From contig NZ_KZ845665.1 in assembly GCF_003313465.1 (NCBI RefSeq), positions 248,001-312,000 of the forward strand: a stretch of DNA of 64,000 bases, read 5' to 3'. The position numbers were made by a program, and so were the translations under genes. This document shows positions 908 to 21,000 of this stretch, one piece after another. This stretch comes from Thermoflavimicrobium daqui. GTDB taxonomy: Bacteria > Bacillota > Bacilli > Thermoactinomycetales > Thermoactinomycetaceae. Below the pieces are notes generated by a model. It had not been told where the DNA came from. It saw only the letters and a list, made by a program, of their open reading frames with translations, and ran no database searches. Position 1 is the first letter of the stretch; each line of letters opens with the position of its first letter.

Positions 908-3900
908 ATGAACAAACGCTATCCTTTAACCGAGGCTCAAAAAAGAATGTGGTATACGGAATCGATTTTTCCTGATACAGGTGTATCGAATGTTGTTGGA
1001 CGAATAAAGTTTCAGGATGTAAAGATTGATTTGATGCAGAAAGCGATTCAATTAATTATTTCTCATTATGAGATATTGCGTGTCAGACTATTCCCGCAAA
1101 AGGGCATGGAGCCTACTCAATACATATTCGAAGATTCATCGGTTGATTTAACACTCGTGGATTTAAGTGATTATAAGAAGGAGCGATTAGAAGAATGGTT
1201 TCAAGAGAAAGCCAAAGCTCCTTTTTGTCTTTATCATTCAAATCTCTATGATTTTGTTCTAGTAAAGTGGAAAGCAGAAATGTTTTTATTGATAAAGTGC
1301 CATCACATCCTATTAGATGGAATTTCAATTAATCTATTGGCACAAAAGATTATAGAGACTTATGAACGACTTCATCAGGGTCTTTCGATCGAGATGACTC
1401 GTTCATATGGATTAACGCAATATATCGAATCGGAGACAGAATACAAAGAGTCTAAGCGGTTTCTTAAAGATCAGCAGTTTTGGCATAGTGAATTTGAGAC
1501 GATTCCTGAATATTTATCAACACGTGTAGATGAATTATATAGAAAGAGTATCGTAGCCAATCGGAGAGCGTTTGTCATTCCACCAGATTTAAAGCAACAG
1601 ATGGAGTTGTTTTGTCAAGAACACAAAACCAGTATGTATACTTTGTTTATGTCTGTACTTTTTATTTATTTTTCTCGTATTTACAATGAAAAAGAGATCA
1701 TACTGGGTACTTATGTTGGTAATCGGAAGCGTAATGAGCGTGATGCACTTGGTATGTTTGTCAGTACGGTACCTTTTCGTATAGCAGTAAGTGACCACCT
1801 GCCCATTTTGGAATGGCTACAGAGCCTGAACCGTAAACAGATGAAGATTTTCCGTCATCAGAAATATCCATATAATCAATTGATTCAGGATTTACAACAT
1901 CAAGGACATGATGTGAAACAGCTTTTCACAGTTGGTATTGAATATCAAGAGTTAACAACAGAAGGAGATCAAATATTTAGTGGATATGACTTCTATGAGA
2001 TCAATGTTCACATCAAAAATTTGATTCAGACAGATCAACTTGTACTAAATGTTGATTATCGACAGGAAGTATATCAAGAGGATGAAATTGAACTGCTGGT
2101 TGAACGTCTAATTACTCTTATCAAAGAGATTATTCAGTATCCTTACAAAAAGATCGCACACTTCGAAATTTGCACAGAGTTAGAGAAACGTAAACAGATG
2201 GTCGAATGGAATCGTACGAAAGCAGATTTTCCAAAGGATCAAACCATTCAGGAACGATTTGTAGAACAAGTAATGAAAACTCCAAATAACATCGCTGTTG
2301 TATACAAGAAAGAGAAACTGACGTATCAAGAGCTACATGAACGATCGAACGTAGTAGCGCAAGTATTAAGACAACAGGGTGTGAAGCCAGGTGACCGAGT
2401 TGGATTATTAATGGAGAAATCGCTTGACTTAATTATAGGAATGCTAGCGATTCTCAAATCAGGCGGAACATATGTGCCTATTGATCCTGAGTATCCACTT
2501 ACGAGAATTCGATATATGTTAGATGACAGCCATGCACAAACGATTTTAAGCCAATCTTCTTTGATCGAAAGATGGAATATGAAAGGTGAATGGTCAAATA
2601 AGTGGTTGGATATTCAAGAGATCAATCAAGTAGAGTTTGAAGCTTCCAATCTACTATCAACCAATCAATCGACCGATTTAGCCTATGTGATTTATACCTC
2701 AGGCACAACTGGACAGCCAAAAGGTGTCATGGTTGAACATCAAGGTGTAATCAATCTGGTTGCATATAGCCAAAAAGAATGGGGCATTCAATCTGGTGAT
2801 CGGATCGGACAAGTTGCGAGTATTGCCTTTGATGCTTCTGTTTGGGAAGTGTATGTCAGTCTATTAACAGGTGCGAGCCTCTACTTGATTCCAAAGGAAA
2901 CAATTCAGGATACGTCAAGATTTGAGGACTATGTAAGTGAACAAAAGCTGACAGTACTTTCTCTCTCAGCTACCTATTTAAACCAATTGAATTCAGAAAA
3001 AATGATGGGTCTTTCGCATTTACGTAAAGTCTTAGCCATTGGTTCAGCTAGTTCTCTGGATCTCGCTAGAAAATGGAAAGGAAAATACGTTAATGCTTAT
3101 GGACCTGCTGAAGCAACGGTTTATGCGACCATGTGGCAAGGAGATGGAGAAATCAACTCCCTTTCTTATGCACCAATTGGAAGACCGATTATGAATGCTA
3201 AAGTTTATATTGTAAATGAACACATTCAATTACAACCGATTGGTATTCCAGGTGAGCTATGTATTGGTGGGATTGGTCTGGCTCGAGGCTACTTAGGGAA
3301 ACCAGAACTCACTGCTGAAAAATTTGTTCCAAGTCCCTTTGTACCAGGTGAAAAATTATATCGGACGGGTGATTTAGCTCGGTATTTACTTGATGGAAAT
3401 ATTGAGTTTTTGGGCCGAATGGATCATCAAGTCAAAGTACGAGGTTATCGGATAGAACTAGGAGAGATAGAATCGGTACTCTTCGAACATCCAAATGTAA
3501 AAGATGTTGCTGTTCGAGATTGGAAAGATGAACAGAATGAAACATATTTGTGTGCTTATGTGGTATTGGATGACACAGTGTCAAGTAGTGAGTTAAAGAA
3601 ATATATAGGACAAAAGTTACCCAGTTACATGATTCCATCCTTTGTTATAGAGATGGAAGAAATACCACTGACTCCCAATCGTAAAGTGGATCGAAAAGCA
3701 TTACCTAAACCAGATAGCACAAAAATTCAAGAGGATTATGTACCACCTGTTACAGATATGGAAAAGCAGTTAACCCGTATTTGGCAACAAGTATTGAATA
3801 TAGAAAAAATCGGTATAACCCATTCCTTTTTCGAATTAGGTGGAAATTCAATTAAGGCCATTCAATTGGTGAATAAGCTAAGCAAAGAACGAATTGTCGT

Positions 3901-6900
3901 TACGGTACAGGATATTTTTCGTTATCCCACGATTGCCGAGTTAAGCCTGCATGCGTATGAAGAAGAGTCAGACGAGCTTTATTTACCAACTGTTGTAGAA
4001 GATGAAGAAAACTTCTATCAACCATTTTCCTTAACAGAAATACAGTTGGCTTACTTACTTGGGCGTAATCAGCATTTTGAGCTGGGTGGAGTAGCAACGC
4101 ACAGCTATTTGGAATGGGAAACCTCTTTGGATATTCGACGCTTTAATCAATGTTTACAGCAAGTTATTCGACGTCATCCCATGTTACGTGCTGTAGTGTT
4201 ACCAAATGGAACCCAACGGATCCTTTCTGAGGATTTGACTTATCCGATTGAAATAGAGGATTTAACAGGGTTAAGTCTTGAAGAACAGGAGCAGCGAGTA
4301 CTTGCTGAGCGTTCTCGTATGTCACACCAAGTATTTCCATCTGAAAAGTGGCCGTTATTTGAATTCAAAGCTTTCCGTTTGAATGAGACTTCACATCTAC
4401 TTTGTTGCAGTTTTGACGTGCTGGTTATGGATGGGGCAAGTTTGCGTATCTTTTGGAAAGAATTGATGGAGTTATATCATCAGCCGGACTTGCTACTTCC
4501 TTCATTAAGTTTGACCTTCCGTGATTACATGTCGGCTTACCAGAAAATGAAACAGAGTAAGAAATACGAGGAAGCCAAAAATTATTGGTTGAGTAAGCGG
4601 GAGGACTTTCCAACTGCGCCGATCCTACGTATGCGGAGAAACCCGAATGATATTACACAGCCTCGTTTTAAAAGCTTGTACCAAACGATTAGTCAAGATC
4701 AATGGAAGAAAATCAAGCAATGGGCACAAAGAAATCAAGTAACGCCCTCAGCGCTGCTTTGTACGGTATATGGTGAGATCTTGGCTCATTGGTCTAATCA
4801 GAGGCGACTAGCGATCAATTCAACGGTATTTAATCGTTATCCCGTTCATTCTCAAGTGGAGCAGATTATCGGTGATTTTACTTCCTTGATTTTGTTAGAT
4901 CTTGATTTGCCGCCAGATCAGTCGTTTGTCCATAAAGTCAGGAAGACACAAGAGACGATGATGGAAGGCTTAGAGCATCGCTATTATGATGGTGTTCGCT
5001 TTCTTCGAGATCTGATGCAGGTGAATCAAATAGAAACAAGGGCTTTGATGCCAATCGTCTTTACCTCCTTGCTTCTCGATGATGATGGATTTAATTGGAA
5101 TGACATAGGTACCCTGCGCTACATGACGGCACAGACACCTCAGGTTTATCTGGATTATGTAGTGACAGAGCAGAATGGCGAGTTGGTTATAATGTGGAAT
5201 TATGTGGAGGAGTTATTTGATCAGGACATGATCAAAATCATGTTTGACCAATATGTATCCATGATGGACCAGCTAGCAGAAAAAGGCGAGATCACTCCTT
5301 TACAATTAACCCAATCAGAGCAAACCTTGCTTACGCAATATAATCAAACGAAAGAGGAACTGCGAAAAGCAACTTTACATCAATTATTTGTCGAGCAAGT
5401 TCAGCGTACACCAAATCAATTGGCTGTAGTATTTGAACATCAAAGTATCACCTATCAGGAGCTAGATCGACGCTCCAATCAAGTAGCTTATTATTTACAA
5501 CAACAAGGAATGGGTGTCGGTGATCGAATCGGTGTGTTAGCTATCCGTCAAGTGGAAACGATTGTCAATCTATTGGGAGTGATAAAGGCTGGAGCGGCTT
5601 ATGTACCAATTGATCCAGACTATCCAAAGGATCGACAAGACTACATCTTAAATCATAGTCAATGTCGGGAATTGATTACCCCAGATCTGTACCACAAACA
5701 AAGCCTTAATGAAGTTCCAGATCATGAAGTGAGAAGCGATGTCACACCAGAAGATGTGGCATATATCATCTATACTTCGGGTAGTACAGGGAAGCCAAAA
5801 GGTGTCGTTGTTTCTCATGAAGCGGTAACCAATACCATTCAAGATATCAACCAGAAGTTTGGCGTTAGCGAACTAGATCGAGTGATTGGAATTTCATCCA
5901 TGTGTTTTGATCTTTCAGTCTATGATATTTTTGGCACGTTAAGTGCGGGAGCAACCCTTGTAATGGTGAAAGACCAACGTGATGTACATCAGTTAGTCGA
6001 AACAGTGAATCAATATGAAATCACGATCTGGAATTCAGTTCCAGTGATTATGGATCTCGCTTTAGAATCCGTTGACTCACACTTTGAAAATAACTCGTTA
6101 CGTTTAACTTTGTTAAGTGGTGATTGGATTCCTCTTACCCTTCCGGCAAAGGTAGCGCAACATTTTCCACATGCTGAAGTGATTTCGCTGGGGGGAGCGA
6201 CAGAAGCTTCGATTTGGTCGATCTATTATCCTATTCATGAAGTAAAACAAGAGTGGAAGAGTATTCCTTATGGAAGACCGCTAGCAAACCAGCAGTATTA
6301 TGTATTGAACGATCATTTGCAACCTTGTCCTATTGAAGTTGAAGGTGAGTTGTTCATTGGAGGGAGTGGTTTAGCGGTAGGTTATTTATTTGATAAAGAG
6401 AAGACAAAGCAAGCATTTATCCAACATCCGAAACTAGGTAGACTCTATCGCACAGGAGACTACGGGCTTCTTCATCGCGATGGCTATATCGAATTTTTAG
6501 GACGAAAAGATCATCAGGTCAAGATTCAAGGTTACCGAGTGGAATTGGAAGAGATCAGTAATACCTTGCTGACCAAGTGGTCGATCACACAGGCCGTTGT
6601 CGTTGATGATACGGAAGAGGGTAGAAAAGTGCTTGGTGCTTATTTTGTGGCCGAAGAGTTGATCGATGGATCAGAGTTGCGTGACGAGCTTACTCGTTTG
6701 TTGCCCAGATATATGGTTCCTGCTTACTTTGTACAGTTAGAGAGCATGCCCTTAAATCCCAATGGAAAGATTGATCGGAATGCTCTTCCCAAACCAACCG
6801 GAATTTCACACAAACAAATCGAATATGTAGGCCCACGGAATGAGATAGAAGCGAAGCTTGTATCTGTATGGGAGCAAGTTTTAAAGGTGGAGCAAGTAGG

Positions 6901-7180
6901 TATTCGTGATGACTTTTTTGCATTCGGTGGGGACTCCATCAAGGCGATCCAGATCATCCAGTTACTTGCCAAAGAAGAGCTTACTCTCAGTTTAAATCAT
7001 TTTTTTAATGCATTAACGATAGAAAAAATGGCTCCTTATCTTGAGGACAGGAAGTCCGTCGATCAGATGAACCATTGCTTGGAAGAGATTGAAACGGAAA
7101 GAACATCAAGGAAATTGAGCGATGAAAGCCTTTCAGCGGAAGAGTTAGCATATATTCAAGATATTTTTGCAGATGAATAA
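908..7180 (+). CDS. Non-ribosomal peptide synthetase 1: Cstarter-A-PCP-Cy-A(Cys)-PCP
   Basis: First subunit of the assembly line, 2090 residues. Residues 1-435 are a condensation domain closely resembling the lipo-initiating starter domain of SrfAA (LTEAQKRMWYTE opening, CHHILLDG core, FRHQKYPYN motif), implying N-acylation of residue 1. A1 spans about 450-955 (TSGTTGQPKG near 595); its specificity residues read by eye as D-A-W-S-L-I-A-V-Y, which I cannot assign. PCP1 has GGNS near 979. Residues 1043-1470 are a heterocyclization domain with D-V-L-V-M-D near 1168 in place of HHxxxDG. A2 (about 1490-1960) gives D-L-Y-N-L-S-L-I-W, the cysteine code. PCP2 has GGDS near 2007 and is followed by a tail resembling the end of an epimerization domain. 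No oxidase domain is present, so the ring should stay a thiazoline. SD AAGGAGGC precedes the ATG. Confidence 0.95.
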   Translation: MNKRYPLTEAQKRMWYTESIFPDTGVSNVVGRIKFQDVKIDLMQKAIQLIISHYEILRVRLFPQKGMEPTQYIFEDSSVDLTLVDLSDYKKERLEEWFQEKAKAPFCLYHSNLYDFVLVKWKAEMFLLIKCHHILLDGISINLLAQKIIETYERLHQGLSIEMTRSYGLTQYIESETEYKESKRFLKDQQFWHSEFETIPEYLSTRVDELYRKSIVANRRAFVIPPDLKQQMELFCQEHKTSMYTLFMSVLFIYFSRIYNEKEIILGTYVGNRKRNERDALGMFVSTVPFRIAVSDHLPILEWLQSLNRKQMKIFRHQKYPYNQLIQDLQHQGHDVKQLFTVGIEYQELTTEGDQIFSGYDFYEINVHIKNLIQTDQLVLNVDYRQEVYQEDEIELLVERLITLIKEIIQYPYKKIAHFEICTELEKRKQMVEWNRTKADFPKDQTIQERFVEQVMKTPNNIAVVYKKEKLTYQELHERSNVVAQVLRQQGVKPGDRVGLLMEKSLDLIIGMLAILKSGGTYVPIDPEYPLTRIRYMLDDSHAQTILSQSSLIERWNMKGEWSNKWLDIQEINQVEFEASNLLSTNQSTDLAYVIYTSGTTGQPKGVMVEHQGVINLVAYSQKEWGIQSGDRIGQVASIAFDASVWEVYVSLLTGASLYLIPKETIQDTSRFEDYVSEQKLTVLSLSATYLNQLNSEKMMGLSHLRKVLAIGSASSLDLARKWKGKYVNAYGPAEATVYATMWQGDGEINSLSYAPIGRPIMNAKVYIVNEHIQLQPIGIPGELCIGGIGLARGYLGKPELTAEKFVPSPFVPGEKLYRTGDLARYLLDGNIEFLGRMDHQVKVRGYRIELGEIESVLFEHPNVKDVAVRDWKDEQNETYLCAYVVLDDTVSSSELKKYIGQKLPSYMIPSFVIEMEEIPLTPNRKVDRKALPKPDSTKIQEDYVPPVTDMEKQLTRIWQQVLNIEKIGITHSFFELGGNSIKAIQLVNKLSKERIVVTVQDIFRYPTIAELSLHAYEEESDELYLPTVVEDEENFYQPFSLTEIQLAYLLGRNQHFELGGVATHSYLEWETSLDIRRFNQCLQQVIRRHPMLRAVVLPNGTQRILSEDLTYPIEIEDLTGLSLEEQEQRVLAERSRMSHQVFPSEKWPLFEFKAFRLNETSHLLCCSFDVLVMDGASLRIFWKELMELYHQPDLLLPSLSLTFRDYMSAYQKMKQSKKYEEAKNYWLSKREDFPTAPILRMRRNPNDITQPRFKSLYQTISQDQWKKIKQWAQRNQVTPSALLCTVYGEILAHWSNQRRLAINSTVFNRYPVHSQVEQIIGDFTSLILLDLDLPPDQSFVHKVRKTQETMMEGLEHRYYDGVRFLRDLMQVNQIETRALMPIVFTSLLLDDDGFNWNDIGTLRYMTAQTPQVYLDYVVTEQNGELVIMWNYVEELFDQDMIKIMFDQYVSMMDQLAEKGEITPLQLTQSEQTLLTQYNQTKEELRKATLHQLFVEQVQRTPNQLAVVFEHQSITYQELDRRSNQVAYYLQQQGMGVGDRIGVLAIRQVETIVNLLGVIKAGAAYVPIDPDYPKDRQDYILNHSQCRELITPDLYHKQSLNEVPDHEVRSDVTPEDVAYIIYTSGSTGKPKGVVVSHEAVTNTIQDINQKFGVSELDRVIGISSMCFDLSVYDIFGTLSAGATLVMVKDQRDVHQLVETVNQYEITIWNSVPVIMDLALESVDSHFENNSLRLTLLSGDWIPLTLPAKVAQHFPHAEVISLGGATEASIWSIYYPIHEVKQEWKSIPYGRPLANQQYYVLNDHLQPCPIEVEGELFIGGSGLAVGYLFDKEKTKQAFIQHPKLGRLYRTGDYGLLHRDGYIEFLGRKDHQVKIQGYRVELEEISNTLLTKWSITQAVVVDDTEEGRKVLGAYFVAEELIDGSELRDELTRLLPRYMVPAYFVQLESMPLNPNGKIDRNALPKPTGISHKQIEYVGPRNEIEAKLVSVWEQVLKVEQVGIRDDFFAFGGDSIKAIQIIQLLAKEELTLSLNHFFNALTIEKMAPYLEDRKSVDQMNHCLEEIETERTSRKLSDESLSAEELAYIQDIFADE

Positions 7181-7192
7181 GGAGTGTCTTTG

Positions 7193-10100
7193 ATGGCGAA
7201 GGTAGAAAAGGTTTATGATTTATCACCAATGCAAGAGGGAATGTTGTATCATTCTCTCTTGCAAGAGAACACAGAAATGTATTTTCAGCAGGTGACTTTT
7301 TCGATCCAAGGTGATCTAGATATTCACGTTTTTGAACAAAGTATCCAACAATTGATCCAAAGGCACGATATACTTCGTACAAACTTTGTCTATCAAAAAA
7401 TCAAAAAGCCTCAGCAAGTCGTATTAGATCATAGAAAAGTAATTGTCCATTATGAAGATTTATCCAATCAATCCGATGAAGCATTTATGCAGTTCATGCA
7501 ATCTTTTTTAGTAGATGATAGGCGAGCTGGTTTTAACTTACGTAAGGATGTATTAATGCGTTTTGCTATTTTCAAAAGGGCTGACCAGAATTTTCGCTTG
7601 GTTTGGAGCTATCATCATATTTTATTGGACGGTTGGAGTATTGGGATTATCATGAATGAATTACTTCAAATCTACTTATCCCTTAAAAAACAACAACCCA
7701 TACAATTCGAAAAAGTGAAGCCTTATCAAGAATTTATTAAATGGTTAGATGTGCGAGATAATAGGAAATCACTAAACTATTGGAAGCAGTATTTACAAGG
7801 ATATCAATATCGACCCTTAATACCCATGAAACCAAGTCAGGTACAGACACCTGATCAGTACAAAACGGTGACCTTCACTCTAGATGAAGAAATGACAGAG
7901 TCACTAATCCATTTGGGTAAGAAGCATCATATCACGCTAAATACCCTGTTTCAAGCCATTTGGGGAGTACTATTGCAAAGATATACCTATCAAGAGGATG
8001 TTGTTTTTGGATCAGTGATATCAGGGAGATCAGCAGCCATTCAAGGGATAGAGAAAATGGTGGGGTTGTTTATTAATACAGTACCTGTTCGTATAGCAAA
8101 AAGTGATGGCTCATTTATAGCGTTCGCTAGAGAATTACAGCAACAGTTTTTTGCTGCTGAAGAACACGGCTATTGTCCCCTTTATGAAATTCAGGAACAA
8201 AGTGGTCATAAACAAGAGTTGTTTGATCATATTATTGCTTTTGAGAATTTCCCTTTGGATCAAGAAATTGGGAACTTACAACATGATCAGGAGTCTATGT
8301 TAAAGATCAGTGATGTGACTAGTTTTGAGCAAACGAATTATCCGCTAACGATCTCAGTAAATCCTAAAAAATCGTTGGAAGTTCGTATGAAATATAATCA
8401 CTCCTTCATTAATCAAGAATTTATTGATCGGATTGAGAATCACTTCAAAAAGGTTACTCAAACAGTGGTGGATCGTCCGAATGTTCAGGTTCGTCAGATT
8501 GATATATTGACAGATTCTGAGAAACAGCAAATTTTGAATACGTGGAATGATACTCGCATGGAATATCCAAAAGAGAAAACGATACATCAATGGTTTGAAG
8601 AGCGAGTAGATCAAGCTGCTCATCATGTAGCAGTGGTTTTCAAGGAAAAACGCCTAACATATTTAGAGTTAAATGAACAAGCAAACCGTTTAGCACGAGT
8701 ACTACGACAAAGAGGAGTTAAACCAGAGGATCGGGTAGGGCTGATCATGGAGCGTTCCTTCGATATGATCATAGGCATCCTGGGCATTTTAAAAGCTGGA
8801 GGCTCTTATGTTCCGATTGATCCCGAATATCCAATCGAGCGGATACGATATATGATAGCCGATAGTGGTTCCAATCTTGTTCTGAGTCAATCTAGAATCA
8901 TGGAAAGACTCGACCCAGAAGAAGTTGAGTCAGTCGAATGGCTAGATGTCCAAGCCTTGGATATGAAGGGGATGGATTGTTCTAACTTACCTCATATCAA
9001 TCAGTCGTCTGACCTAGCTTATGTCATTTATACCTCTGGAACGACTGGACGACCCAAAGGGGTTATGATGGAACACCGCCAACTGGTTAACTTATTACAC
9101 AATCAAATTTCAAGTGAGGAGATTGCTTTTACTGGGAAAGTATTGCAGTTTAGCTCCATTAGTTTTGATGTGAGCTTTCAAGAAATTTTTTCAGCCCTTT
9201 TATCTGGCGGTTGCCTATATGTCATTGAGAGTCAAATGAGACAAAATATTGTTCAACTATTGACATATATTGAAGAACAAGACATTTCGATTGTTTACTG
9301 GCCTGTCTCTTATGCGAAAGCAGTGTTTCAACTAACCGATCAATTACCACAGTCGATTCAACATGTAATTACAGCAGGAGAACAGTTAGTTGTGCCGTCT
9401 TCACTGAAACAGTGTATTCGTCAAAGTGATGTGCAATTACATAATCACTATGGCCCTTCAGAAACCCATGTTGTAACAACATATAAACTAACGTCTGATC
9501 AAGAAATCGTAGATTATCCACCAATTGGGAAACCGATTGCGAATACAAAGATTTATTTACTACATGAAAATGGTCAATTACAACCACCGGGTGTTGTTGG
9601 TGAAATATATATTTCGGGTGATAGTGTAAGTAGAGGTTACTTGGGTAAACCGGAACTCACAGCAGCCAAATTTTTGCCCAGTCCCTTTGTCTTAGGTGAG
9701 CGAATGTATCGAACCGGAGACCTTGGACGCTACTTACCAGATGGAAATATTGAATTTTTGGGGCGGGTCGATCATCAAGTCAAAATTCGTGGCTATCGCA
9801 TAGAGTTAGATGAGATTGCTTCCGTATTCTTGGAGCATCCAAAGGTAAAAGATGTAGTCGTTCAAGATTGGAAAAGCGATCAAGATGAGACTTATTTATG
9901 TGCTTATGTTGTATTGAATGAGCCTATATCAAGTTCTGAGCTAAAGAAATATTTGAAACAAAAGTTGCCTGACTATATGATTCCCTCCTTTATTCTGGAA
10001 ATGGATCAGCTTCCTTTGACAACGAATGGTAAGGTGGATCGAAAGGCATTACCTCTCCCTAATGAATCAAAACATCAAGTAGTGTATGTACCACCTACGA

Positions 10101-13100
10101 CAGAAATGGAGAAACAGTTAGTAGAAATTTGGCAGCACGTATTAGGGATTGATCGTGTTGGGATCACAGATCACTTTTTTCATATCGGTGGTCACTCCCT
10201 AAAAATAATTCAATTAGTGTCCATGATCCACCAAAAGCTACAAATCGAATTACCGGTTCGTGCAATTTTTGAGTATCCTTCGATTCAGGAATTAACTTCT
10301 TATCTTGCAGAAAGAGAGAAGACGGATTTTCAATCGATTCAGCCAGCTCCATCTCAACCCTATTATCCACTCTCTTCAGCACAAAAGCGGATGTTTGTAT
10401 TGCAGCAAATGGAGCTAAACTCTACGCACTATCATCTACCTGGAGCGGTTATGATCGAAGGTGAATTAGACATTCAGCGCTTGGAACGAGCATTTCAAAA
10501 ACTGATTGAACGTCATGAAGCCTTACGTACCTCATTCGAGCTAGTAGACGGAGAACCTATGCAAAAGATTCATCCCAAGGTTCCCTTTAAGATCACTGTG
10601 CAAAAGGGTACCAAAAGAGAAGCGGAAAACAGGATCAATCAATTTGTTCGTCCATTTTCGTTGGAACAAGCTCCATTATTCCGTGTGGAATTAATCCAAC
10701 TTCAGTCAAAAAAGCATTTGCTACTGATCGATATACACCATATCATTACAGATGGTATTTCAACCGATGTGATGTTAGATGACCTTTCGAAACTATATCG
10801 TGGAGAGAAACGATCAGATCTTCCAATTCAGTATAAAGATTTTGCAGTCTGGCAACAGGAATGGATGGAATCAGATTCCTTCCATCAACAAGAGAAATAC
10901 TGGTTAGAAACCTTTTCGGATGAGATTCCTGTTTTGGAATTACCAACAGATTATATGCGTCCAGAGGTACAAAACTTTGCAGGTAGCCATGAAAGCTTTG
11001 TCTTAAATGAAGAGCTAACGAAATCACTAAAAAGGCTTGCATCTACAACAGGTACAACGCTATATATGCTACTGCTAGCTGCCTATAGTATCTTGTTACA
11101 AAAATATTCGAAGCAAGCGGAAGTGATTATAGGAACGCCCGTTGTCGGTCGATCACATGCCGATATTCAGTCAGTAATGGGATTATTTGTGAATACACTG
11201 GCGATTCGAACCCGTCCCGAAGGACATAAGAGCGTTGTTGATTTTGTACGAGAGGTGAAAGAAGAGGCTCTAGGTGCTTATGATCATGCTGACTATCCTT
11301 TTGAAATACTTGTAGAAAAGCTCTCCCTTAAGCGTGATACCAGTCGCAATCCACTATTCCAAGCGATGTTTACGATGCAAGACTTTGGTAGTGATACCTT
11401 TAAGCTCGATGGGTTACAGGTTAAACCACTTGAATTGGAGTATGCGATTTCGAAGTTCGACCTATCCCTGGTAACTAAAGAGAGTCAAGACCAGATTATA
11501 TGTCAATTCGAGTATGCCCATTCTCTATTTAAGCGAGAAACGATAGAGCGGATGAAGCAGCATTTTGAGCAGATTGTAAACGAAATGGTAACACATCCTA
11601 ATAAGAAAATAAAAGAAGTTGACATGTTAACGGATCAAGAAAAGTATCAGCTGTTAGTAGAGTGGAATCACACTACAACCCCGTATCCCAAACAAAAAAC
11701 AATCCATGAGTGGTTTGAAGAACAAGTAGCTAAAACCCCAAATAACATAGCGGTGGTATGTAAAGATGGGAAATTGACATACCAAGAGTTAAATGAACGA
11801 GCCAATCGTTTGGCACATGTCTTAAGAAAACGTGAAGTGAAACCAGATGATCGAGTAGGATTGTTATTAGCGCGTTCGTTTGATGTGGTTGTGGGGATTT
11901 TAGGAATTTTAAAGGCGGGTGGAGCTTATGTGCCTATCGATCCCTCCTATCCAGTAGAACGGATTCGATATATGTTGGAAGATAGTCAGGCTATGATTGT
12001 TTTAAGTCAGGCTTCCATAATAGAAAAGCTTTTGGATGAAGGCAATGAGATCGGAGAATGGTTAGATATAGGAGAGGTTGTCTCCACAGAAGTTGATTCT
12101 TCGAATCTATCGAATATGAACAAGCCTACTGATTTGGCGTATGTGATTTATACTTCAGGAACAACAGGACAACCAAAGGGAGTAATGGTAGAACACCAAA
12201 GTTTGATCCATCTCATATGTCACTTCCAAACCGAGTTTCTCATAAATGAGCAAGACCGAGTCGGTCAATTTGCCAATATTTCCTTTGATGCCGCCGTCTG
12301 GGAAATCGGAGTTAGTCTGCTATCTGGGGCTTGTCTGTATATGATTCCTCATGATGTGGTCTTAAGTCCTGTTGACTTTGAACAGTATGTGAATCAGCAT
12401 CATCTAAGTATCCTATTACTTCCTCCTACTTACCTATGCTATCTTCATAAGCAAAATATGAAATCACTACGAAAAGTAATGGTTGGGGGCTCCGCAAGCT
12501 CATCGAACTTAGTAGAACATTGGAAAGAAATCTATACTAATGCGTATGGACCTACCGAAACGACTGTCTGTGCTACCACATGGGAGCCAACAAAAGAAGA
12601 GGATGTTATGGAAGTTCCAATTGGAAAACCGATTTCCAATACAAAGATATACATCTTAGATGAAAACTTACAGTTACAACCCATCGGAGTTCCTGGAGAA
12701 CTGTGTATTGGTGGAGACGGGCTGGCAAGAGGGTACCTCAACAAACCGGAATTAACCGCCGAAAAGTTTATCCTTAATCCGTTTATTCCTGGAGAGCGAA
12801 TCTATCGTACGGGAGATGTTGCTCGCTATTTGTCAGATGGAAATATCGAATTTTTGGGGCGAATCGATGAGCAAGTAAAAGTACGAGGCTACCGAATTGA
12901 GCTAGGTGAAATTGAGTCTATACTAATGAGTCACCCCAATGTAAAGAATGTAACGGTACGCGAGTGGACAGATGAACAGGATGAAATGGATTTATGTGCG
13001 TATGTAGTATTGAATGAGCACATATCAAGTAGTGAACTGAGGAAGTATCTGAGGCGAAAACTCCCTGATTATATGATTCCATCCTTTATCATGGAGATTG

Positions 13101-14860
13101 ATGAGATTCCCATTTCACCCCATGGTAAAGTAGATCGAAGTCAACTACCAAAACCAGATGGACTTGAATTACAAACAGAATATGTGGCGCCAGTTACCGA
13201 GATGGAGAAGAAGTTAGCCCATATTTGGCAACAAGTATTAGGTCTAAGAAAAATAGGTGTAACCCATCACTTTTTTGAATTGGGAGGAGACTCGATCAAA
13301 GCAATTCAAATAGCTGCTATGTTACAGAAAGAAAATCTGATCCTAAGCGTAAACCATCTTTTTCGCGCGCCAACAATTCAAAAGGTGATCCCTTATATCA
13401 AGAGCAAGAAGCAGCAAGTGAAGCAAGACCTCGTACAAGGTGAAGTACCTCTTACTCCGATTCAAGCCGAGTTTTTTATGCATGCAGGGTCTTATGTCAA
13501 TCACTTTAATCAGTCTATTCTATTATATAGTCCCACACATCTCCATGAGGATGTTTTAAATAAAGTGTTAATGAAACTTGTAGAGCATCATGATGCACTG
13601 CGAATGATCTATCGGAAACAGAAAGATCAATGGATTCAGATGAATCGCGGACTAGAAGAGACCCCTTTCCAGCTTGATTCATTTGACTTGCGGAATGAGA
13701 AAAATGTGAGAGACCAAATCGAAGAGTTAGCAAATCAAATGCAAAGCAGCTTAGATATTACTAAAGGCTTGCTAATGAAGGTCGGGCTATTTCAAACAGA
13801 TCATGGTGACTATTTACTAATAATTATTCATCACTTAGTTGTTGATGGTGTTTCATGGCGGATTTTATTGGAGGACTTTGAAAGTGGTTATCAACAGGCA
13901 TTGAAACAGCAACCTATCCAACTTCCATTGAAGACAGACTCTTATTTAGCTTGGGCGAATGGTTTGAGAGAATATGCAATCAGTTCCCAGATACAAAAAG
14001 AGATTCCGTATTGGGAAAAGCTATGTCAGTCCGAGATTGTGCCTCTACCGAAGGACCGTGAGGTGAAAGAAAGCTTCATACAAGAGAGTGACTATATCGA
14101 GTTATCTTTAACCAAAGAACAAACGAAACAACTGCTGAGTCAAATTCATCACGCCTATAATACGGAAATCAATGATATTCTACTAACGGCTGTAGGATTA
14201 ACTGTAAAAGATTGGGTCAACACTGATCAGGTAAGTATTTTATTAGAAGGACATGGTCGTGAGGAGATTTTAGAAACAATTCGTCTTCATCGAACTATCG
14301 GTTGGTTTACAAGCTGTTATCCAGTTGTCTTTGATTTTGCTCAAGATGATTCTGAAGAATCGATCGATCAGCGCCTGTCAGACAGTATCAAAAAAGTAAA
14401 GGAAACTTTACGCAGGATTCCGAATCGAGGGATTGGCTTTAGTATTTTGAAATACTTGCGTCAAGCTGAACTTAGGTCTACTGAATTCACTCATTTTCGT
14501 CCAGAAATTACTTTTAACTATCTTGGGCAATTTGACCCAAATACGAAGGAAAATGGTCATTTTCAGATCTCTTCATTGAAAACAGGTAAGTTGGTAAGCC
14601 CACAGATGAAACGAAGACACACGATTGAGATGAACGGACTCATTTTCAATGGGAAGTTTACACTGCAAGTAGGTTATAGCTGTAAGGAATACAACCGAGA
14701 GACCATCATCAAGTTCACTCAATATCTAAAGGAAAACTTGGAACAATTGATCAAACACTGCGCCGGAAAGTCTGAAACAGAAATCACCCCAAGTGATGTA
14801 GGGGATAAAAACCTTTCGTTAGAAGACTTACAATATATGCAAAGTATACTTGAAGGATAG
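7193..14860 (+). CDS. Non-ribosomal peptide synthetase 2: C-A(Pro)-PCP-C-A-PCP-E
   Basis: Second subunit, 2555 residues. The ATG at 7193 is chosen because AAGGAG (7179-7184) sits 8 bases upstream; the GTG at 7184 overlaps that site. Order: C with HHILLDG near 141 and the LSPMQEGMLYHSLL opening typical of DCL domains; A1 with TSGTTG near 610 and code D-V-Q-W-I-A-H-V-V (proline type, W for L at one site); PCP GGHS near 999; C with HHIITDG near 1182; A2 with TSGTTG near 1653 and code D-A-W-L-M-G-A-V-C, probably a bulky or aromatic residue; PCP GGDS near 2031; then an epimerization domain (HHLVVDG near 2212, FNYLGQFD). Residue 4 is therefore D. It begins 12 bases after NRPS1 ends. The C-terminal tail LSLEDLQYMQSIL looks like a donor docking segment. 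Confidence 0.95.
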   Translation: MAKVEKVYDLSPMQEGMLYHSLLQENTEMYFQQVTFSIQGDLDIHVFEQSIQQLIQRHDILRTNFVYQKIKKPQQVVLDHRKVIVHYEDLSNQSDEAFMQFMQSFLVDDRRAGFNLRKDVLMRFAIFKRADQNFRLVWSYHHILLDGWSIGIIMNELLQIYLSLKKQQPIQFEKVKPYQEFIKWLDVRDNRKSLNYWKQYLQGYQYRPLIPMKPSQVQTPDQYKTVTFTLDEEMTESLIHLGKKHHITLNTLFQAIWGVLLQRYTYQEDVVFGSVISGRSAAIQGIEKMVGLFINTVPVRIAKSDGSFIAFARELQQQFFAAEEHGYCPLYEIQEQSGHKQELFDHIIAFENFPLDQEIGNLQHDQESMLKISDVTSFEQTNYPLTISVNPKKSLEVRMKYNHSFINQEFIDRIENHFKKVTQTVVDRPNVQVRQIDILTDSEKQQILNTWNDTRMEYPKEKTIHQWFEERVDQAAHHVAVVFKEKRLTYLELNEQANRLARVLRQRGVKPEDRVGLIMERSFDMIIGILGILKAGGSYVPIDPEYPIERIRYMIADSGSNLVLSQSRIMERLDPEEVESVEWLDVQALDMKGMDCSNLPHINQSSDLAYVIYTSGTTGRPKGVMMEHRQLVNLLHNQISSEEIAFTGKVLQFSSISFDVSFQEIFSALLSGGCLYVIESQMRQNIVQLLTYIEEQDISIVYWPVSYAKAVFQLTDQLPQSIQHVITAGEQLVVPSSLKQCIRQSDVQLHNHYGPSETHVVTTYKLTSDQEIVDYPPIGKPIANTKIYLLHENGQLQPPGVVGEIYISGDSVSRGYLGKPELTAAKFLPSPFVLGERMYRTGDLGRYLPDGNIEFLGRVDHQVKIRGYRIELDEIASVFLEHPKVKDVVVQDWKSDQDETYLCAYVVLNEPISSSELKKYLKQKLPDYMIPSFILEMDQLPLTTNGKVDRKALPLPNESKHQVVYVPPTTEMEKQLVEIWQHVLGIDRVGITDHFFHIGGHSLKIIQLVSMIHQKLQIELPVRAIFEYPSIQELTSYLAEREKTDFQSIQPAPSQPYYPLSSAQKRMFVLQQMELNSTHYHLPGAVMIEGELDIQRLERAFQKLIERHEALRTSFELVDGEPMQKIHPKVPFKITVQKGTKREAENRINQFVRPFSLEQAPLFRVELIQLQSKKHLLLIDIHHIITDGISTDVMLDDLSKLYRGEKRSDLPIQYKDFAVWQQEWMESDSFHQQEKYWLETFSDEIPVLELPTDYMRPEVQNFAGSHESFVLNEELTKSLKRLASTTGTTLYMLLLAAYSILLQKYSKQAEVIIGTPVVGRSHADIQSVMGLFVNTLAIRTRPEGHKSVVDFVREVKEEALGAYDHADYPFEILVEKLSLKRDTSRNPLFQAMFTMQDFGSDTFKLDGLQVKPLELEYAISKFDLSLVTKESQDQIICQFEYAHSLFKRETIERMKQHFEQIVNEMVTHPNKKIKEVDMLTDQEKYQLLVEWNHTTTPYPKQKTIHEWFEEQVAKTPNNIAVVCKDGKLTYQELNERANRLAHVLRKREVKPDDRVGLLLARSFDVVVGILGILKAGGAYVPIDPSYPVERIRYMLEDSQAMIVLSQASIIEKLLDEGNEIGEWLDIGEVVSTEVDSSNLSNMNKPTDLAYVIYTSGTTGQPKGVMVEHQSLIHLICHFQTEFLINEQDRVGQFANISFDAAVWEIGVSLLSGACLYMIPHDVVLSPVDFEQYVNQHHLSILLLPPTYLCYLHKQNMKSLRKVMVGGSASSSNLVEHWKEIYTNAYGPTETTVCATTWEPTKEEDVMEVPIGKPISNTKIYILDENLQLQPIGVPGELCIGGDGLARGYLNKPELTAEKFILNPFIPGERIYRTGDVARYLSDGNIEFLGRIDEQVKVRGYRIELGEIESILMSHPNVKNVTVREWTDEQDEMDLCAYVVLNEHISSSELRKYLRRKLPDYMIPSFIMEIDEIPISPHGKVDRSQLPKPDGLELQTEYVAPVTEMEKKLAHIWQQVLGLRKIGVTHHFFELGGDSIKAIQIAAMLQKENLILSVNHLFRAPTIQKVIPYIKSKKQQVKQDLVQGEVPLTPIQAEFFMHAGSYVNHFNQSILLYSPTHLHEDVLNKVLMKLVEHHDALRMIYRKQKDQWIQMNRGLEETPFQLDSFDLRNEKNVRDQIEELANQMQSSLDITKGLLMKVGLFQTDHGDYLLIIIHHLVVDGVSWRILLEDFESGYQQALKQQPIQLPLKTDSYLAWANGLREYAISSQIQKEIPYWEKLCQSEIVPLPKDREVKESFIQESDYIELSLTKEQTKQLLSQIHHAYNTEINDILLTAVGLTVKDWVNTDQVSILLEGHGREEILETIRLHRTIGWFTSCYPVVFDFAQDDSEESIDQRLSDSIKKVKETLRRIPNRGIGFSILKYLRQAELRSTEFTHFRPEITFNYLGQFDPNTKENGHFQISSLKTGKLVSPQMKRRHTIEMNGLIFNGKFTLQVGYSCKEYNRETIIKFTQYLKENLEQLIKHCAGKSETEITPSDVGDKNLSLEDLQYMQSILEG

Positions 14861-14948: not shown

Positions 14949-15006
14949 GGCTTCGATTGATAGAAAATCGTTTTAGAAACAGCTTCTAGTAAGGAGTGGG
15001 GCTTTG

Positions 15007-18000
15007 ATGTCAAATCAAATAAAAATTGAAAAGGTTTATAATTTATCACCGATGCAAGAAGGAATGCTATACCATTCCCTCTTGCAGGAAAAAACAGCAA
15101 CCTATTTTCAACAAATGACTTTTTCGATAGAAGGAAATTTAGATGTGCCGAATTTTAAACAGAGTATTCAACGATTGGTACAAAGACATGATCTACTACG
15201 AACAGCTATTTTTTATCAAAAAATAGAGAGGCCCAAACAAGTTGTATTGACAGGTCGTGAAGTTCCTGTCTATGTTAAGGATCTATCTCATCTATCAGCT
15301 GAAGAATCGCAGTCTGTGATTGAATCGTATCAACAAGAAGATCGACAAAAAGGTTTTCACTTGCAAAAAGATGTATTAATGCGTTTTGCTCTGTTTAAAC
15401 GGAGTGAAAAGGATGTTTATGTGATTTGGAGCTTTCATCACATTCTCTTAGATGGTTGGAGTATGGGTAGTCTGGTCAAAGAATTATTTTCGATCTATTC
15501 ACTTACAAAAAATAAGCAACCTATCCTTTTGGAAGAGATAAAACCTTATAAAGAATTTATCGAGTGGTTGGAAGAGCGCGACGATATAGACTCTCTGAGC
15601 TATTGGAGAGAATACTTGCAGGGGTATGAAGATTTAGCCTATTTGCCAAGGAAACAAAGTCGAATAGAAGAGGATGAAACATACCGGGATTTTACTTTTA
15701 CTTTTAGTGAAGAAATGTCCAAGGCACTGATCCATTTTAGTAAGCAGCAACACGTAACATTAAATACAACGTTTCAAGCTATTTGGGGCGTTTTATTACA
15801 CAGATATACCAATCAAGATGATGTTGTTTTCGGAGCGGTTCATTCGGGAAGATCCGCATCGATTGATGGAATCGAGAAGATGGTGGGGCTATTTATCAAT
15901 ACCGTTCCTGTTCGTATTCGAGGTAGTCATGGTTCATTTTCAGCGTTTGTGAGTCAAATACAAAAACAAGCATTTGACTATGAAATGCACGGCTTTTGCC
16001 CTCTTTATGAAGTTCAACAACAAAGTATCCATCAACAAGCGTTATTTGATCATCTCATGGTTTTTGAAAGCTACCCATTGGATCAAGAAGTACAAAATCT
16101 TTTCAATGGGCAGAGACAAGAGTTGCGGATTCGTGATGTAAAATGTTTTGAGCAAACGAATTATCCGCTGACCATCGCTGTGATGCCTGGGAGTTCCATT
16201 CAGGTGAAACTTACATACGATTCATCTGTACTTCAGGATGTGTTTATTTCGAATATTGAAAAGCATATGAAGCAAGTTGCTAAAGCTGTGTTGGCTGATC
16301 CAGAAATAAAGGTTCAGCAAATCGATATCTTGGATGAAGAAGAAAAACAACGATTACTCAAATCGTGCAATGATAATCAGGCGGATTATCCGAAAGAGCA
16401 GACGATTCATAAATGGTTTGAGGAACAAGTAGTGAAAACACCCCATCAGGTAGCAGTAGTCTACAAAGATGACCAACTTACCTACCAAGAACTAAATGAA
16501 CAAGCGAATCGCTTGGCTTACGTGTTACGTCAAAAAGGAACAAAGCCTGATGATCGGATAGGGTTGATGATAGAGCGTTCCTTGGATATGATCGTAGGCA
16601 TTCTTGCGATTCTAAAGGCAGGGGGAGCTTATGTTCCGATTGATCCCCAATATCCAGTCGAACGGATGAGATACATGCTAGCTGATAGTGGAGCTAATCT
16701 GATTCTCAGCCAATCATCGATCATGGAAAAACTCAACAAAGAAGAGCTTGGATCGGTAGAATGGTTGGATGTTCAAACTTTAGATTTAAAAGAAATGGAT
16801 GTTTCCAACTTATCCGATGTCAATCAGTCAACTGATTTGGCCTATGTAATGTATACTTCGGGAACGACAGGACAACCCAAAGGAGTGATGATTGAACATC
16901 GGAGCGTGATCAATTTTTTATATCATTGGAACAAACAGTTGGACATTCAGGAAGATGACCGGATTGGACAATTTGCTAGCGTTTCGTTTGATGTTTCCGT
17001 AGAAGAATTGGGGATGAGTCTACTGACAGGAGCATGCCTTTATATCCTAACTCCTGAGCTGATTTATGATGTAGTGGAGCTAGAAAACTATATCAAGCAA
17101 AATCAGCTAACGATTCTCCATTTGCCTCCATCTTATGCTAAGTACCTAAAATACGAGGAGCCATCTTCACTTCGTCATTTTATTTTGGGAGGATCTTTAG
17201 CGCCATGTCCTTTAGTGGAGAGATGGAAAAAAATTTGTATCAACTCCTACGGACCTACCGAAACAACGGTTACTGCCACCATGTGGAGAGCGGATAAAAA
17301 TCTCCCTGTTTCCTCTGTACCAATCGGAAAGCCCATTCCCAATGTACAGGTTTATATCATCAATCAACACTTACAGCTGCAACCATTTGGTGCTCCAGGA
17401 GAACTATGTATCGGTGGAGTGGGGCTAGCTCGTGGATATCTCGGAAAACCAAAATTGACAGAAGAAAAGTTTATTCCCAATCCATTCGTTCCTGGAGAGC
17501 GCCTGTATCGCACAGGTGATCTAGTACACTATTTGCCTGATGGCAATCTAGCGTTTTTGGGTCGGATCGATCAACAGGTAAAAGTACGTGGATATCGGAT
17601 TGAGCTGGGAGAGATTGAATCTATTCTTCTAACACATACCAAAGTCAAAAGCGCAACGGTACAAGATTGGAAAGATGCACAAGGTGAAATTTATCTCGCT
17701 GCCTATGTCATCTTAGATGAAACGGGAGTGAGTCATGAGCTAAAAAAGTATTTAAGTCAAAAGCTACCAGCCTACATGATTCCTTCTTTTATCATAGAGG
17801 TGGATGAAATTCCCTTGACCCAAAACGGTAAAGTGGATAAAGCAGCTTTACCCAAACCGGATGAGTCAACCATAGTAGAAAATTATGTACCACCTGTAAC
17901 CCAACTGGAAAAGCAGTTGGTAAAGATATGGCAAGAATTATTAGGTATTGATCCGATTGGGATAACGGATGACTTTTTTCAGATTGGCGGACACTCATTA

Positions 18001-21000
18001 AAAGCGATTCAGTTGATGTCGATGATCCATCAAAAGCTAGAAGTAGAGGTTCCAGTACGAGCGATTTTTGAACAACCAACCATCCAACAACTGGCTACCT
18101 ATTTGCGAGATCAAGAAATGACAGCGTTCCGCTCGATTCAGCCTGCTCCTGTTCAGAGGTATTATCCTGTCTCTTCCGCACAAAAACGGATTTATATCCT
18201 ACAACAATTGGAGCGAAACGCAACCCACTATAATATGTCTGGTGCATTGATGCTTAACGGATCACTTGATAGAGTGCGTTTGGAGCAAGCATTCCAAAAA
18301 CTGATCCAACGTCATGAATCACTTCGAACTTCATTTCAAGTTATCAATGGCGAGCCTATGCAATATGTTCATACTGAAGTCGACTTTCAGCTACGTGTTC
18401 GCAAGGGAAGCAAAGAAGGAGCAAAGAATTGGGTGAATCAGTTCATTCAGCCTTTTTCACTAGACCAAGCCCCACTATTTCGTGCTGAATTAATTCAGCT
18501 AGAGCCGGAAGAGCATCTACTTTTGATTGACCTTCACCATATTATCGCAGATGGTGTATCCGTTGATCTGTTACTTGATGAACTCTCTAAGATCTATCAG
18601 GGTGAGAATTTACCTAAATTACACATTCAATATAAAGATTTTTCTGTTTGGCAACAAGAATGGATGAAATCAGATGAATGGAAACGACAAGAAACCTATT
18701 GGTTAAATATTTACGCAGGTGAAATTCCTGTTTTGGATTTACCGACTGACTATGTTCGGCCAGAGATGCAAAGTTTTAAAGGGAGTTATTGGGACTTTGT
18801 TTTAGACTCTGATTTAACCCATTCCTTAAAACGACTGGCATCTAAAACGGAAACCACCATCTATATGCTACTACTTACTGCCTACAATGCTTTGCTTCAC
18901 AGATATACTGGTCAATCAGATATCATTGTGGGATCGCCTGTCGTTGGTCGGTCACATGCGGATGTGCAATCTGTTGTGGGGATGTTTGTCAATACATTGG
19001 CGATACGTAATTATCCAGAAGGACAAAAAAGATGGATTGACTTTATTCAAGAAGTAAAAGAGAGCGCAGTAGCTGCTTACGATCACGCTGATTATCCCTT
19101 TGAGGTTTTAGTAGATAAGCTTTCTCTTCAGCGAGATACAGGTCGTAATCCATTGTTTCAAGCAATGATAACCGTTCAAGACTTTGGTCGAGACTTACTT
19201 CAGTTGGACGGTGTGCAAGTAACACCCTATGAGCTAGATTATGCCATTTCGAAATTTGATCTCTTATTATTTGCAACCGAGAGACAAAATAAAATAGAGT
19301 GTCGATTGGAATATGCAACTTCTTTGTTCATGCCAGAAACGATTCAGCGGATGACCCAACATTTTATACAGATCGTTCAAGAAATGGTCAATGATCCTGA
19401 TAAATGTATTGCCGAAATGGAAATGTTGACAGAACAGGAGAAGCAGCGACTGTTAGTGGAATGGAACGATACGACGAGTGTACAAGATCTGTACGAAAAG
19501 ACGATACACGGGTTATTTGAGGAACAAGTAATCCAAACATCGAACAAAATAGCAGTGGTATTCAAAGAGGAACAGCTGACTTATCATGAGTTAAATAACC
19601 AATCTAATCGCTTGGCAAGATTGTTACGTAAGCATGGAATCAAGCCAGATGATCGTGTCGGTCTACTGATGGAACGTTCTTTGGAAATGATTGTTGGGAT
19701 GCTTGCCATTTTAAAGGCGGGTGGAGCTTATGTACCCATTGACCCTGCATATCCAACTCAGCGAATCGAATACATGTTGTCAGATAGTGGAGCACAGATC
19801 GTTATCAGTGATGATGTAGTGATGAGCCAATTTAAAGAAACAGAATGGAATACAGCCATAGAGTGGCTCAATGTCAAGCAAGCTACATGCTCAGATCTGG
19901 ACTCTTCCAATCTACCCCATATCTGTACAAACAGCCATCTAGCTTATGTCATCTATACTTCAGGAACGACAGGTCAACCCAAGGGAGTGATGATGGAGCA
20001 CCGTCAGCTACTCAATTTATTACAAGATCAATTATTAAATACATCGATTCCTTTTGATAGAAATGTATTGCAATTTAATACCATCAGCTTTGATGTAAGC
20101 TTCCAAGAAATTTTCTCTACCCTATGTTCAGGTGGATGTTTATATGTGATTGACAATCAAATGAAACAAAATATGAGACAGCTATTACAATATATGGAAG
20201 AGCAAGCCATTACCGTTATCTTCTGGCCTGTTTCTTATCTGAAAGCTGTGTTCCAATGGGTAGATCAGCTGCCAGGATCGATTCAACATGTGATTACAGC
20301 AGGTGAACAACTTGTCCTATCATCATCATTACAGCAGTATATCAGTCAAAGTGATGTGTACTTACATAATCACTATGGTCCATCGGAGACACATGTGGTA
20401 ACGACTTACACTATTTCTTCACGAACAAAAAAGGTCGAACATCCTCCGATCGGAAAGCCGATTGCCAACACAAAAATCTATTTGCTCAACAAGAATCAAC
20501 AACTACAACCTCAAGGAGTGGTAGGGGAAATTTATATATCGGGAGATAGTGTAAGTAGAGGGTACCTTGGAAAGCCAGAGCTAACGGCTGAGAGATTTAT
20601 CCCCAATCCCTTTATACCTGGAGAACGTATGTATCGTACAGGGGACTTAGCCCGTTATCGATCCGATGGAAATATTGAATTTTTGGGTCGAATCGATCAT
20701 CAAGTCAAAGTGCGTGGTTATCGTATCGAACCGAGTGAGATTGAAACGATACTCTTAGACCATGCAAAAGTGAAAGACGCAGTGGTATGTGACTGGACCG
20801 ATGAGCAAAATGAAGTTTATCTATGTGCCTATATTGTAGAAGATGCATCTGTATCAAATACTGAACTAAAGAATGATTTAGCCAAAAAGCTTCCTCAGTA
20901 CATGCTCCCATCTTTTATAATCAAACTGGATCGGATACCACTAAATTCCAATGGTAAGGTAGAGCACAAACAATTACCAAAACCAAATACGATGCATATG

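Follow-up and report, generated by a model that had tools for sequence, protein, structure and literature searches.

A nonribosomal peptide synthetase of Thermoflavimicrobium daqui with a tail of probable epimerization-domain ancestry and no epimerization domain

The three-gene locus and the tail of NRPS1

We report here on three consecutive nonribosomal peptide synthetase (NRPS) genes, NRPS1, NRPS2 and NRPS3, in the open reading frame (ORF) list of a stretch of 64,000 nucleotides from Thermoflavimicrobium daqui (contig NZ_KZ845665.1, positions 248,001 to 312,000; the whole stretch is termed the window). NRPS1 carries no epimerization (E) domain. Its C terminus quite probably descends from a protein that ended in a peptidyl carrier protein (PCP), an E domain and a communication-mediating (COM) domain, from which E was lost while the tail was apparently kept for docking. 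A preliminary description of this DNA had interpreted the same C terminus as the scar of an excised E domain of about 430 residues. The genes, which in addition encode condensation (C), adenylation (A), heterocyclization (Cy) and thioesterase (TE) domains, and the parts of NRPS1 considered below are as follows.

908-7180, plus strand: NRPS1, C(starter-like)-A-PCP-Cy-A-PCP-tail (ORF, Pfam, domain hidden Markov models, HMMs)
7184-14860, plus strand: NRPS2, C-A-PCP-C-A-PCP-E (domain HMMs)
15004-21936, plus strand: NRPS3, C-A-PCP-C-A-PCP-TE (domain HMMs)
4016-5341, plus strand: Cy of NRPS1, BmdB-type, FDLSVYD motif
5375-6790, plus strand: second A domain (A2) of NRPS1, BmdB-type, specificity code starting DLY as in BmdB
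6842-7045, plus strand: second PCP (PCP2) of NRPS1, pre-E (T-E) class
7061-7102, plus strand: putative remnant: DQMNHCLE from the end of the last helix of E, then the COM seam EIETER
7103-7135, plus strand: COM lid, degenerate (TSRKLSDESLS; E-bearing tails mostly have TPSDF...)
7136-7177, plus strand: COM donor helix AEELAYIQDIFADE, with a putative role in docking

Neither an E nor a TE domain was found in NRPS1 with Pfam and the domain HMMs. The NRPS1 stop codon and the first start codon of NRPS2 are 3 bases apart, and therefore a separate E gene cannot fit between them. We take the specificity code of A2 to be that of Cys. Out of 41 others in the order, a single genome, G037, contains an ortholog of NRPS1 (77% over Cy-A-PCP-tail), which stands in the same three-gene order and is likewise without E. 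The source genome is a 3.87-Mb draft of 40 contigs, as might be invoked for an assembly or annotation artefact or a decaying pseudogene; this is ruled out by the ortholog with the same architecture. Moreover, the frame is open, the Cy and C motifs are present, and the tails of NRPS1 and NRPS2 differ, so that no repeat has been collapsed.

The residues N-H-C of NRPS1 begin at position 7070 and the residues K-H-C of NRPS2 at 14753. Aligned without gaps to the post-E tail of NRPS2, the last 36 residues of NRPS1 are identical at 14 of 35 positions (HC, ETE, T, D, LS, E, L, Y, Q and I), compared with a mean of 4.8 and a maximum of 11 in a shuffle control (20,000 shuffles, best of 7 offsets each). 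The preliminary description had placed both motifs correctly and had named the same residues; its 14 identities stand, and its alignment length of 33 is replaced by 35. The nearest E-ended tail belongs to another genome (G013, L112_+_2951), with 16 of 35 positions identical and no gaps. A BLASTP comparison of the NRPS1 C terminus with NRPS2 alone aligned 55 residues at 37.5% (E value 1.2e-6). With an HMM of 19 E-ended tails, the last 44 residues of NRPS1 score 20.2 bits; shuffles reach at most 10.7 bits (4773 of 5000 reported) and other PCP-ended tails at most 4.4 bits (28 of 33 reported). This HMM was trained without the window and G037. Also omitted were repeated sequences sharing the same ends, the frameshift-like ORFs L089 and L116, and three E-ended proteins that terminate soon after their last helix (L096_814, L108_5044, L110_809).

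The aligned stretch corresponds to the end of E together with the TPSD that opens the COM donor in GrsA and TycA; TPSD is given as the start of the COM donor in PMC11546977. We transferred the limits of the seam in NRPS1 from the TycA/BacC numbering of PMC12402864, where the COM donor is divided into seam, lid and helix, and where seam and lid touch the body of E. The NRPS1 helix is of the LSxEELxxI type of trans COM donors and scores 11.6 bits by itself with the tail HMM; a structure model of PCP2 and tail has a helix at 108-120 (single-sequence and weak, mean pLDDT 60.6). Two COM-donor features are lacking, namely the TPSD lid and, as in the ortholog, an E domain ahead. The seam of NRPS1, EIETER, is similar to that of E tails, but in place of an xPxD lid NRPS1 has TSRK. 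The xPxD form was seen in 37 of 43 E tails (some of them duplicates), in all 15 of those in cis and in 22 of the 28 in trans. Of the six E tails without it, three belong to proteins that end soon after the last helix of E, two to frameshift-like ORFs, and one is a variant.

As an observation in its own right, three NRPSs on the minus strand (L108:5044-18915, L110:809-11530 and L096:814-11361) end in E shortly after its last helix, with no lid, COM helix or TE. They are perhaps the last of their lines.

Comparing the window with G037, seam and lid together with the preceding HC are identical at 2 of 19 positions in the E-less NRPS1 and at 15 of 19 in the E-bearing NRPS2 (Fisher 4.7e-5), whereas the helix is similarly conserved in both (11 of 16 from LSAEEL on in NRPS1, 11 of 15 in NRPS2; p 1.0). 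In G037 the tail retains PCP2 and the helix and has lost most of the stretch in between. Seam and lid have thus decayed in the E-less NRPS1 and the helix has been retained, the pattern expected of a docking helix attached to a seam and lid that serve E.

Some of these data weigh against E ancestry of the tail. The contrast between seam/lid and helix comes from one ortholog pair. The E-domain part alone (DQMNHC...DESL) scores 9.0 bits, a value reached by 6 of 5000 shuffles and thus significant but weaker, and the G037 tail, which is recognisable in its helix only, scores 6.4 bits. The COM helix alone is not specific, because LSxEE-like helices also end several PCP-ended proteins of the ordinary class (L013, L092, L191, L193). 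The tail of NRPS1 could accordingly be an ordinary docking tail of a PCP-ended protein, resembling E by convergence or in its COM helix alone. We consider this very unlikely given the gapless register of HC and ETExT at 14 and 16 of 35 positions, the wide gap between 20.2 bits and the scores of other PCP-ended tails, and the class of the C domain that follows. The homology of the NRPS1 tail thus spans the end of E, beyond the docking helix, as had been proposed earlier.

Classes of PCP2 and of the downstream C domain

Four further features of the locus served as the partner of the tail, as internal references or as a control.

7193-8548, plus strand: N-terminal COM acceptor and first C domain of NRPS2 (C = 7214-8548), DCL class, HHILLDG present
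13199-13402, plus strand: PCP of NRPS2 that precedes E, internal reference
13433-14761, plus strand: E of NRPS2 (HHLVVDG, EGHGRE), followed by the COM tail (K-H-C at 14753, to 14857), internal reference
15037-16371, plus strand: first C domain of NRPS3, control behind the E of NRPS2, DCL class, +231 (coordinates computed from domain position)

PCP2 of NRPS1 reads GGDSI...LTLSLNHFFNALT and resembles the pre-E PCP of NRPS2 (52.5% over 80 residues), in agreement with the preliminary description. To classify PCPs, we labelled them by the domain that follows and tested their class with loci held out, using 58 sources (the window and 57 loci) with 117 ORFs containing any of the domains. The loci were picked via matches to a Cy-A-PCP query, so that they are a non-random sample, and some overlap (e.g. 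L018/L088, L056/L104). We excluded PCPs that lack an A domain upstream, matches that were weak or incomplete, PCPs truncated where a stretch ends, and identical duplicates. With the window and G037 held out, PCP2 scored +12.5 bits toward the pre-E class, and it falls into a 55-leaf clade (support 93) that contains all 45 pre-E PCPs. All 45 pre-E PCPs scored positive. So did three each of the 71 pre-C, 19 pre-Cy and 29 protein-terminal PCPs; none of the 13 pre-TE PCPs did. The protein-terminal PCPs with a positive score belong to NRPS1 (+12.5), to the G037 ortholog (+12.4) and to a protein of G007 (+15.6). In the pre-Cy group, the positive cases were the first PCP of each of three proteins, namely NRPS1, the G037 ortholog and BmdB.

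The first C domain of NRPS2 was scored with a classifier built from the C domains of 14 cis E-C and 74 cis PCP-C junctions; in held-out tests this classifier gave positive DCL scores to 14 of 14 domains of the former and 2 of 74 of the latter. The NRPS2 domain obtained a DCL-LCL score of +220 and belongs to a clade (support 98) that holds all 14 cis post-E C domains, which bears out its earlier designation as DCL-type. This class, together with an intact LSPMQEG motif (L(T/S)P(M/L)QEG), identifies the N terminus of NRPS2 as a COM acceptor. For adjacent proteins, an E-ended protein was followed by a DCL domain in 21 of 21 scored pairs (one more was unscored), and a PCP-ended protein of other type by an LCL domain in 8 of 8, three of which had no PCP score. 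Proteins ending in a pre-E-type PCP preceded a DCL domain in 3 of 3 cases, two of them being orthologs.

The DCL class of the C domain after NRPS1 is kept in both orthologs. This might be taken to mean that the function of E was replaced, by a trans-acting epimerase or by spontaneous epimerization of the thiazoline (the latter raised in the preliminary description), and that the DCL domain still receives a D donor. Racemization beside thiazolines does occur spontaneously; in thiazoline peptides, lability lies chiefly at the exocyclic carbon that precedes the ring and not at the centre read by a C domain. No racemase or epimerase was seen among the seven downstream ORFs with a Pfam match (eight downstream ORFs were scanned). 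Moreover, C domains of DCL ancestry in glycopeptide NRPSs act on L donors after an inactive E domain (Rausch 2007; PMC1894796). Replacement of the E function is therefore an unlikely explanation.

Mosaic structure of NRPS1 and other E-less junctions

Windowed BLASTP against our own ORF set assigned different nearest relatives to different parts of NRPS1. These are the starter-type C domains of G013 and G022 for residues 1-450 (a closer one was later found in G007), modules in its own or the ortholog's cluster for residues 450-1000 (A1, PCP1), BmdB or other Cy modules for about 1000-1950 (Cy-A2), and the pre-E PCPs of NRPS2 and G013 from about 1950 onward (PCP2). On this pattern of similarity NRPS1 is thus a mosaic made by recombination, and the loss of E may belong to the same recombination event. 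The N-terminal C domain (908-2257) falls into a starter-like group common to G007 (C-A-PCP-TE), G013 and G022, with a DCL-LCL score of -71, between both classes. We had considered this domain as a pointer to an E-ended framework and dropped the idea; the ortholog aside, its closest relative belongs to a C-A-PCP-TE protein of G007, and the domain is therefore silent about E.

Cy-A2 of NRPS1 is homologous to module 2 of the bacillamide synthetase BmdB (structure 7ly7; 1347 bits over query residues 3-994). Among 398 genomes of the class, the best match after the G037 ortholog was a BmdB-like protein (59%) of G004, a genome of the same family as the source genome; this protein matches the BmdB structure with 2335 bits. 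A single scan of genome contigs gave one Cy-A relative at 46% (Brevibacillus parabrevis) and no ortholog. Relatives retaining a full E domain, one of the checks proposed in the preliminary description, gave a divided answer: the ortholog in G037 lacks E as NRPS1 does, and in a related cluster of G013 the first gene encodes C-A-PCP-E with intact E motifs. The pre-E PCP of this G013 protein is the nearest to PCP2 outside the ortholog (61% by BLASTP, 58% by alignment).

Further points count on the side against excision. BmdB of G004 itself has a pre-E-class PCP2 (+18.3) and then, after a long linker and without E, a DCL-class C3 (+185); four more C domains in our set stand behind Cy-A-PCP, and all of these are of the LCL class (-247 to -304). 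In G007, a C-A-PCP-C-A-PCP protein (L097:12953-19261, minus strand) ends in a pre-E-class PCP (+15.6), and 558 bp further on lies an NRPS with a DCL-class first C domain (+133). At 1.8 bits its tail is not recognised as a COM tail, and no remnant of E was seen in the 558-bp gap; this is possibly another E-less junction. Two 1102-residue C-A-PCP proteins of G213 and G293 (L200:3078-6383 and L201:3139-6444, both minus strand) have no E, are not behind a Cy domain, and end in pre-E-class PCPs (+15.4, +16.1), with a DCL-class first C domain in the next protein (+196 each). The helix-like G213 tail LSLDEMKELEEELK scores 5.2 bits, reached by 21 of 5000 shuffles, and does not score as a COM tail. The junctions of BmdB, G007, G213 and G293 all lack an HC-type tail. 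Because these proteins combine a pre-E PCP with a DCL domain in the absence of E, the combination is not proof of excision. It is the tail, rather than the PCP class or the DCL class, that carries the E ancestry of NRPS1.

A bacillamide synthetase near BmdB (L052:3063-10088, minus strand) has a pre-E-class PCP2 and a DCL-class C3, separated by a gap of 53 compared with 20-28 in six ordinary PCP-C linkers by the same measure. Perhaps E was lost at this junction in cis, at an earlier time.

We searched 398 genomes of the class and 42 of the order, two overlapping sets, with a profile of PCP2 and the tail, by which rarer cases could be missed. Among the matches listed, we inspected nine further ones that reach the tail, beyond the window and G037. 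They comprise PCP-C junctions in G040 and G348, PCP-E junctions in G012 and G144 (two places), a PCP-TE junction in G190, PCP-ended proteins in G019 and G104 with an ordinary-class PCP and an LCL-scoring next C domain (in G104, 126 residues of C lie in the stretch), and one E-less pre-E junction, that of G213 (+15.4, next C +196).

The mosaic structure raises the possibility that an E-less bacillamide-type Cy-A-PCP was joined by recombination to the COM end of a protein of C-A-PCP-E type, such as that of G013. With the right breakpoint inside the last helix of E, this would have removed E in one step, and the module would never have had one. The BmdB type of Cy-A2 fits this possibility, as does the fact that BmdB PCP2 is of the pre-E class and E-less; in addition, PCP1 of NRPS1 and the pre-E PCP of NRPS2 share 56% identity, as expected if PCP1 had formerly been a pre-E PCP. 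BmdB PCP2 and NRPS1 PCP2 share 65% over a 37-residue piece. Over its whole length, however, PCP2 more closely resembles pre-E PCPs, namely those of G013 (58-61%) and NRPS2 (51%), BmdB PCP2 is absent from the 20 best matches of PCP2, and the best match leaves the group of Cy modules at residues 1901-2000, around the start of PCP2 (1980). A quick tree placed PCP2 with the pre-E PCPs of NRPS2, the G037 NRPS2 and G013 (support 74), and a careful tree placed it beside bacitracin-type pre-E PCPs and BmdB PCP1 (support 37/75). In the approximately unbiased (AU) test, neither a grouping with BmdB PCP2 (p 0.245) nor one with the G013 PCP (p 0.451) was rejected, and the PCP tree did not decide whether the parent of PCP2 was G013-like or BmdB-like. 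We regard such an exchange as possible, if somewhat doubtful.

We prefer the descent of the NRPS1 C terminus from a PCP-E-COM-ended protein, which is directly supported by the tail, the absence of E in both orthologs, the DCL class of the next C domain and the decay of seam and lid. The catalytic E domain of about 430 residues would be gone. Behind a PCP of the pre-E class there would remain the terminal part of its last helix, followed by the COM elements, namely the seam, a lid that has decayed and the donor helix. We infer that NRPS1 still uses its COM helix to bind the COM acceptor of NRPS2, and that the Cys-derived thiazoline would be passed unepimerised to a C domain of DCL ancestry. E may have been lost by deletion in place after the arrival of a bacillamide-type Cy-A, or replaced in the same recombination. 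Of the excision proposed earlier, the E ancestry and the loss of E thus hold up. Deletion in place is plausible and not separable from the one-step exchange, given the mosaic NRPS1, the AU result and the E-less junctions of BmdB, G007, G213 and G293.

We tentatively suggest that loss of E at junctions of pre-E PCP and DCL domain could be recurrent. The partner domains would stay, the COM helix would become a pure docking element, and seam and lid would decay. Cy modules might be one favourable setting, with the thiazoline donor relaxing the stereochemical gate. BmdB would then be a case in cis, the cluster described here a case in trans with a scar, and G007 and G213/G293 cases in which the scar is gone. 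The tie to Cy modules is weakened by G213/G293.

Comparison with known systems

According to a 2025 study, COM domains are always present where E is integrated, a strict co-occurrence for which the reasons are unknown, and seam and lid are proposed to position E relative to C, with docking being secondary (PMC12402864). In TycA, which has E, four of six changes in seam or lid left 9-42% of the product, and the other two had mild effects (82 and 91%; PMC12402864). Because COM is described as co-occurring with E, NRPS1/NRPS2 looks like a natural E-less COM junction. No published description of such a junction was found in the openly readable literature searched; COM domains have also been reported within modules, for example in bacillomycin D synthetase (PMC11546977), and an E-less case may already be in print. 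TycA/TycB and the COM of BacC share with NRPS1/NRPS2 the donor helix, the position of the seam, the LSPMQEG acceptor and the DCL-class downstream C domain. They differ in that their COM sits between E and C, whereas NRPS1 has no E, and its E-contacting seam and lid are decaying (PMC12402864). The junction offers a natural test of the scaffold model, in which seam and lid should decay when E goes and the helix should stay, as seen in one ortholog pair. In an engineering study cited in PMC11546977, a COM helix placed at a PCP-C junction lost much activity; the NRPS1 tail provides a natural design for this arrangement.

BmdB of Thermoactinomyces vulgaris makes its product from thiazoline and thiazole intermediates, and two of its arginines bind the oxidase BmdC (PMC8795117). 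These arginines (1512 and 1513, RR) correspond to QY in NRPS1 and in the G037 ortholog. No match to BmdC was found in G037, and the source genome (G000) has one partial match at 29%, about 26 kb upstream. For these reasons, the thiazoline ring formed by the NRPS1 module is probably not oxidised, in which case its stereocentre should matter, and NRPS1/NRPS2 is a case for asking how a DCL-class C domain handles a thiazoline donor. BmdB (7ly7; PMC8795117) and NRPS1 have in common homologous Cy-A2 domains and a pre-E-class PCP that feeds a DCL-class C domain without E. BmdB differs in being a single chain with an oxidase partner, BmdC, and a terminal tryptamine-condensing C domain; the junction of NRPS1 is in trans and bears an E-derived tail.

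The G007 (L097) and G213/G293 (L200, L201) proteins resemble NRPS1 in their pre-E-class PCP end, short tail and DCL-class next C domain. Unlike NRPS1, their modules are C-A-PCP rather than Cy modules, and they have neither HC nor seam. In glycopeptide NRPSs, the function of E was likewise lost before a C domain of DCL ancestry; an inactive E is kept in some of those clusters, whereas NRPS1 keeps only the end of E and the docking helix (PMC1894796). Finally, T-C/LCL blocks have been exchanged for T-E/E/DCL blocks by recombination, so that E was gained together with its special T and C partners (PMC8097286). Domain-level recombination involving a pre-E PCP and a DCL domain is common to that exchange and to NRPS1. 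There, E was gained with its partners; in NRPS1, the partners were kept and E was lost.

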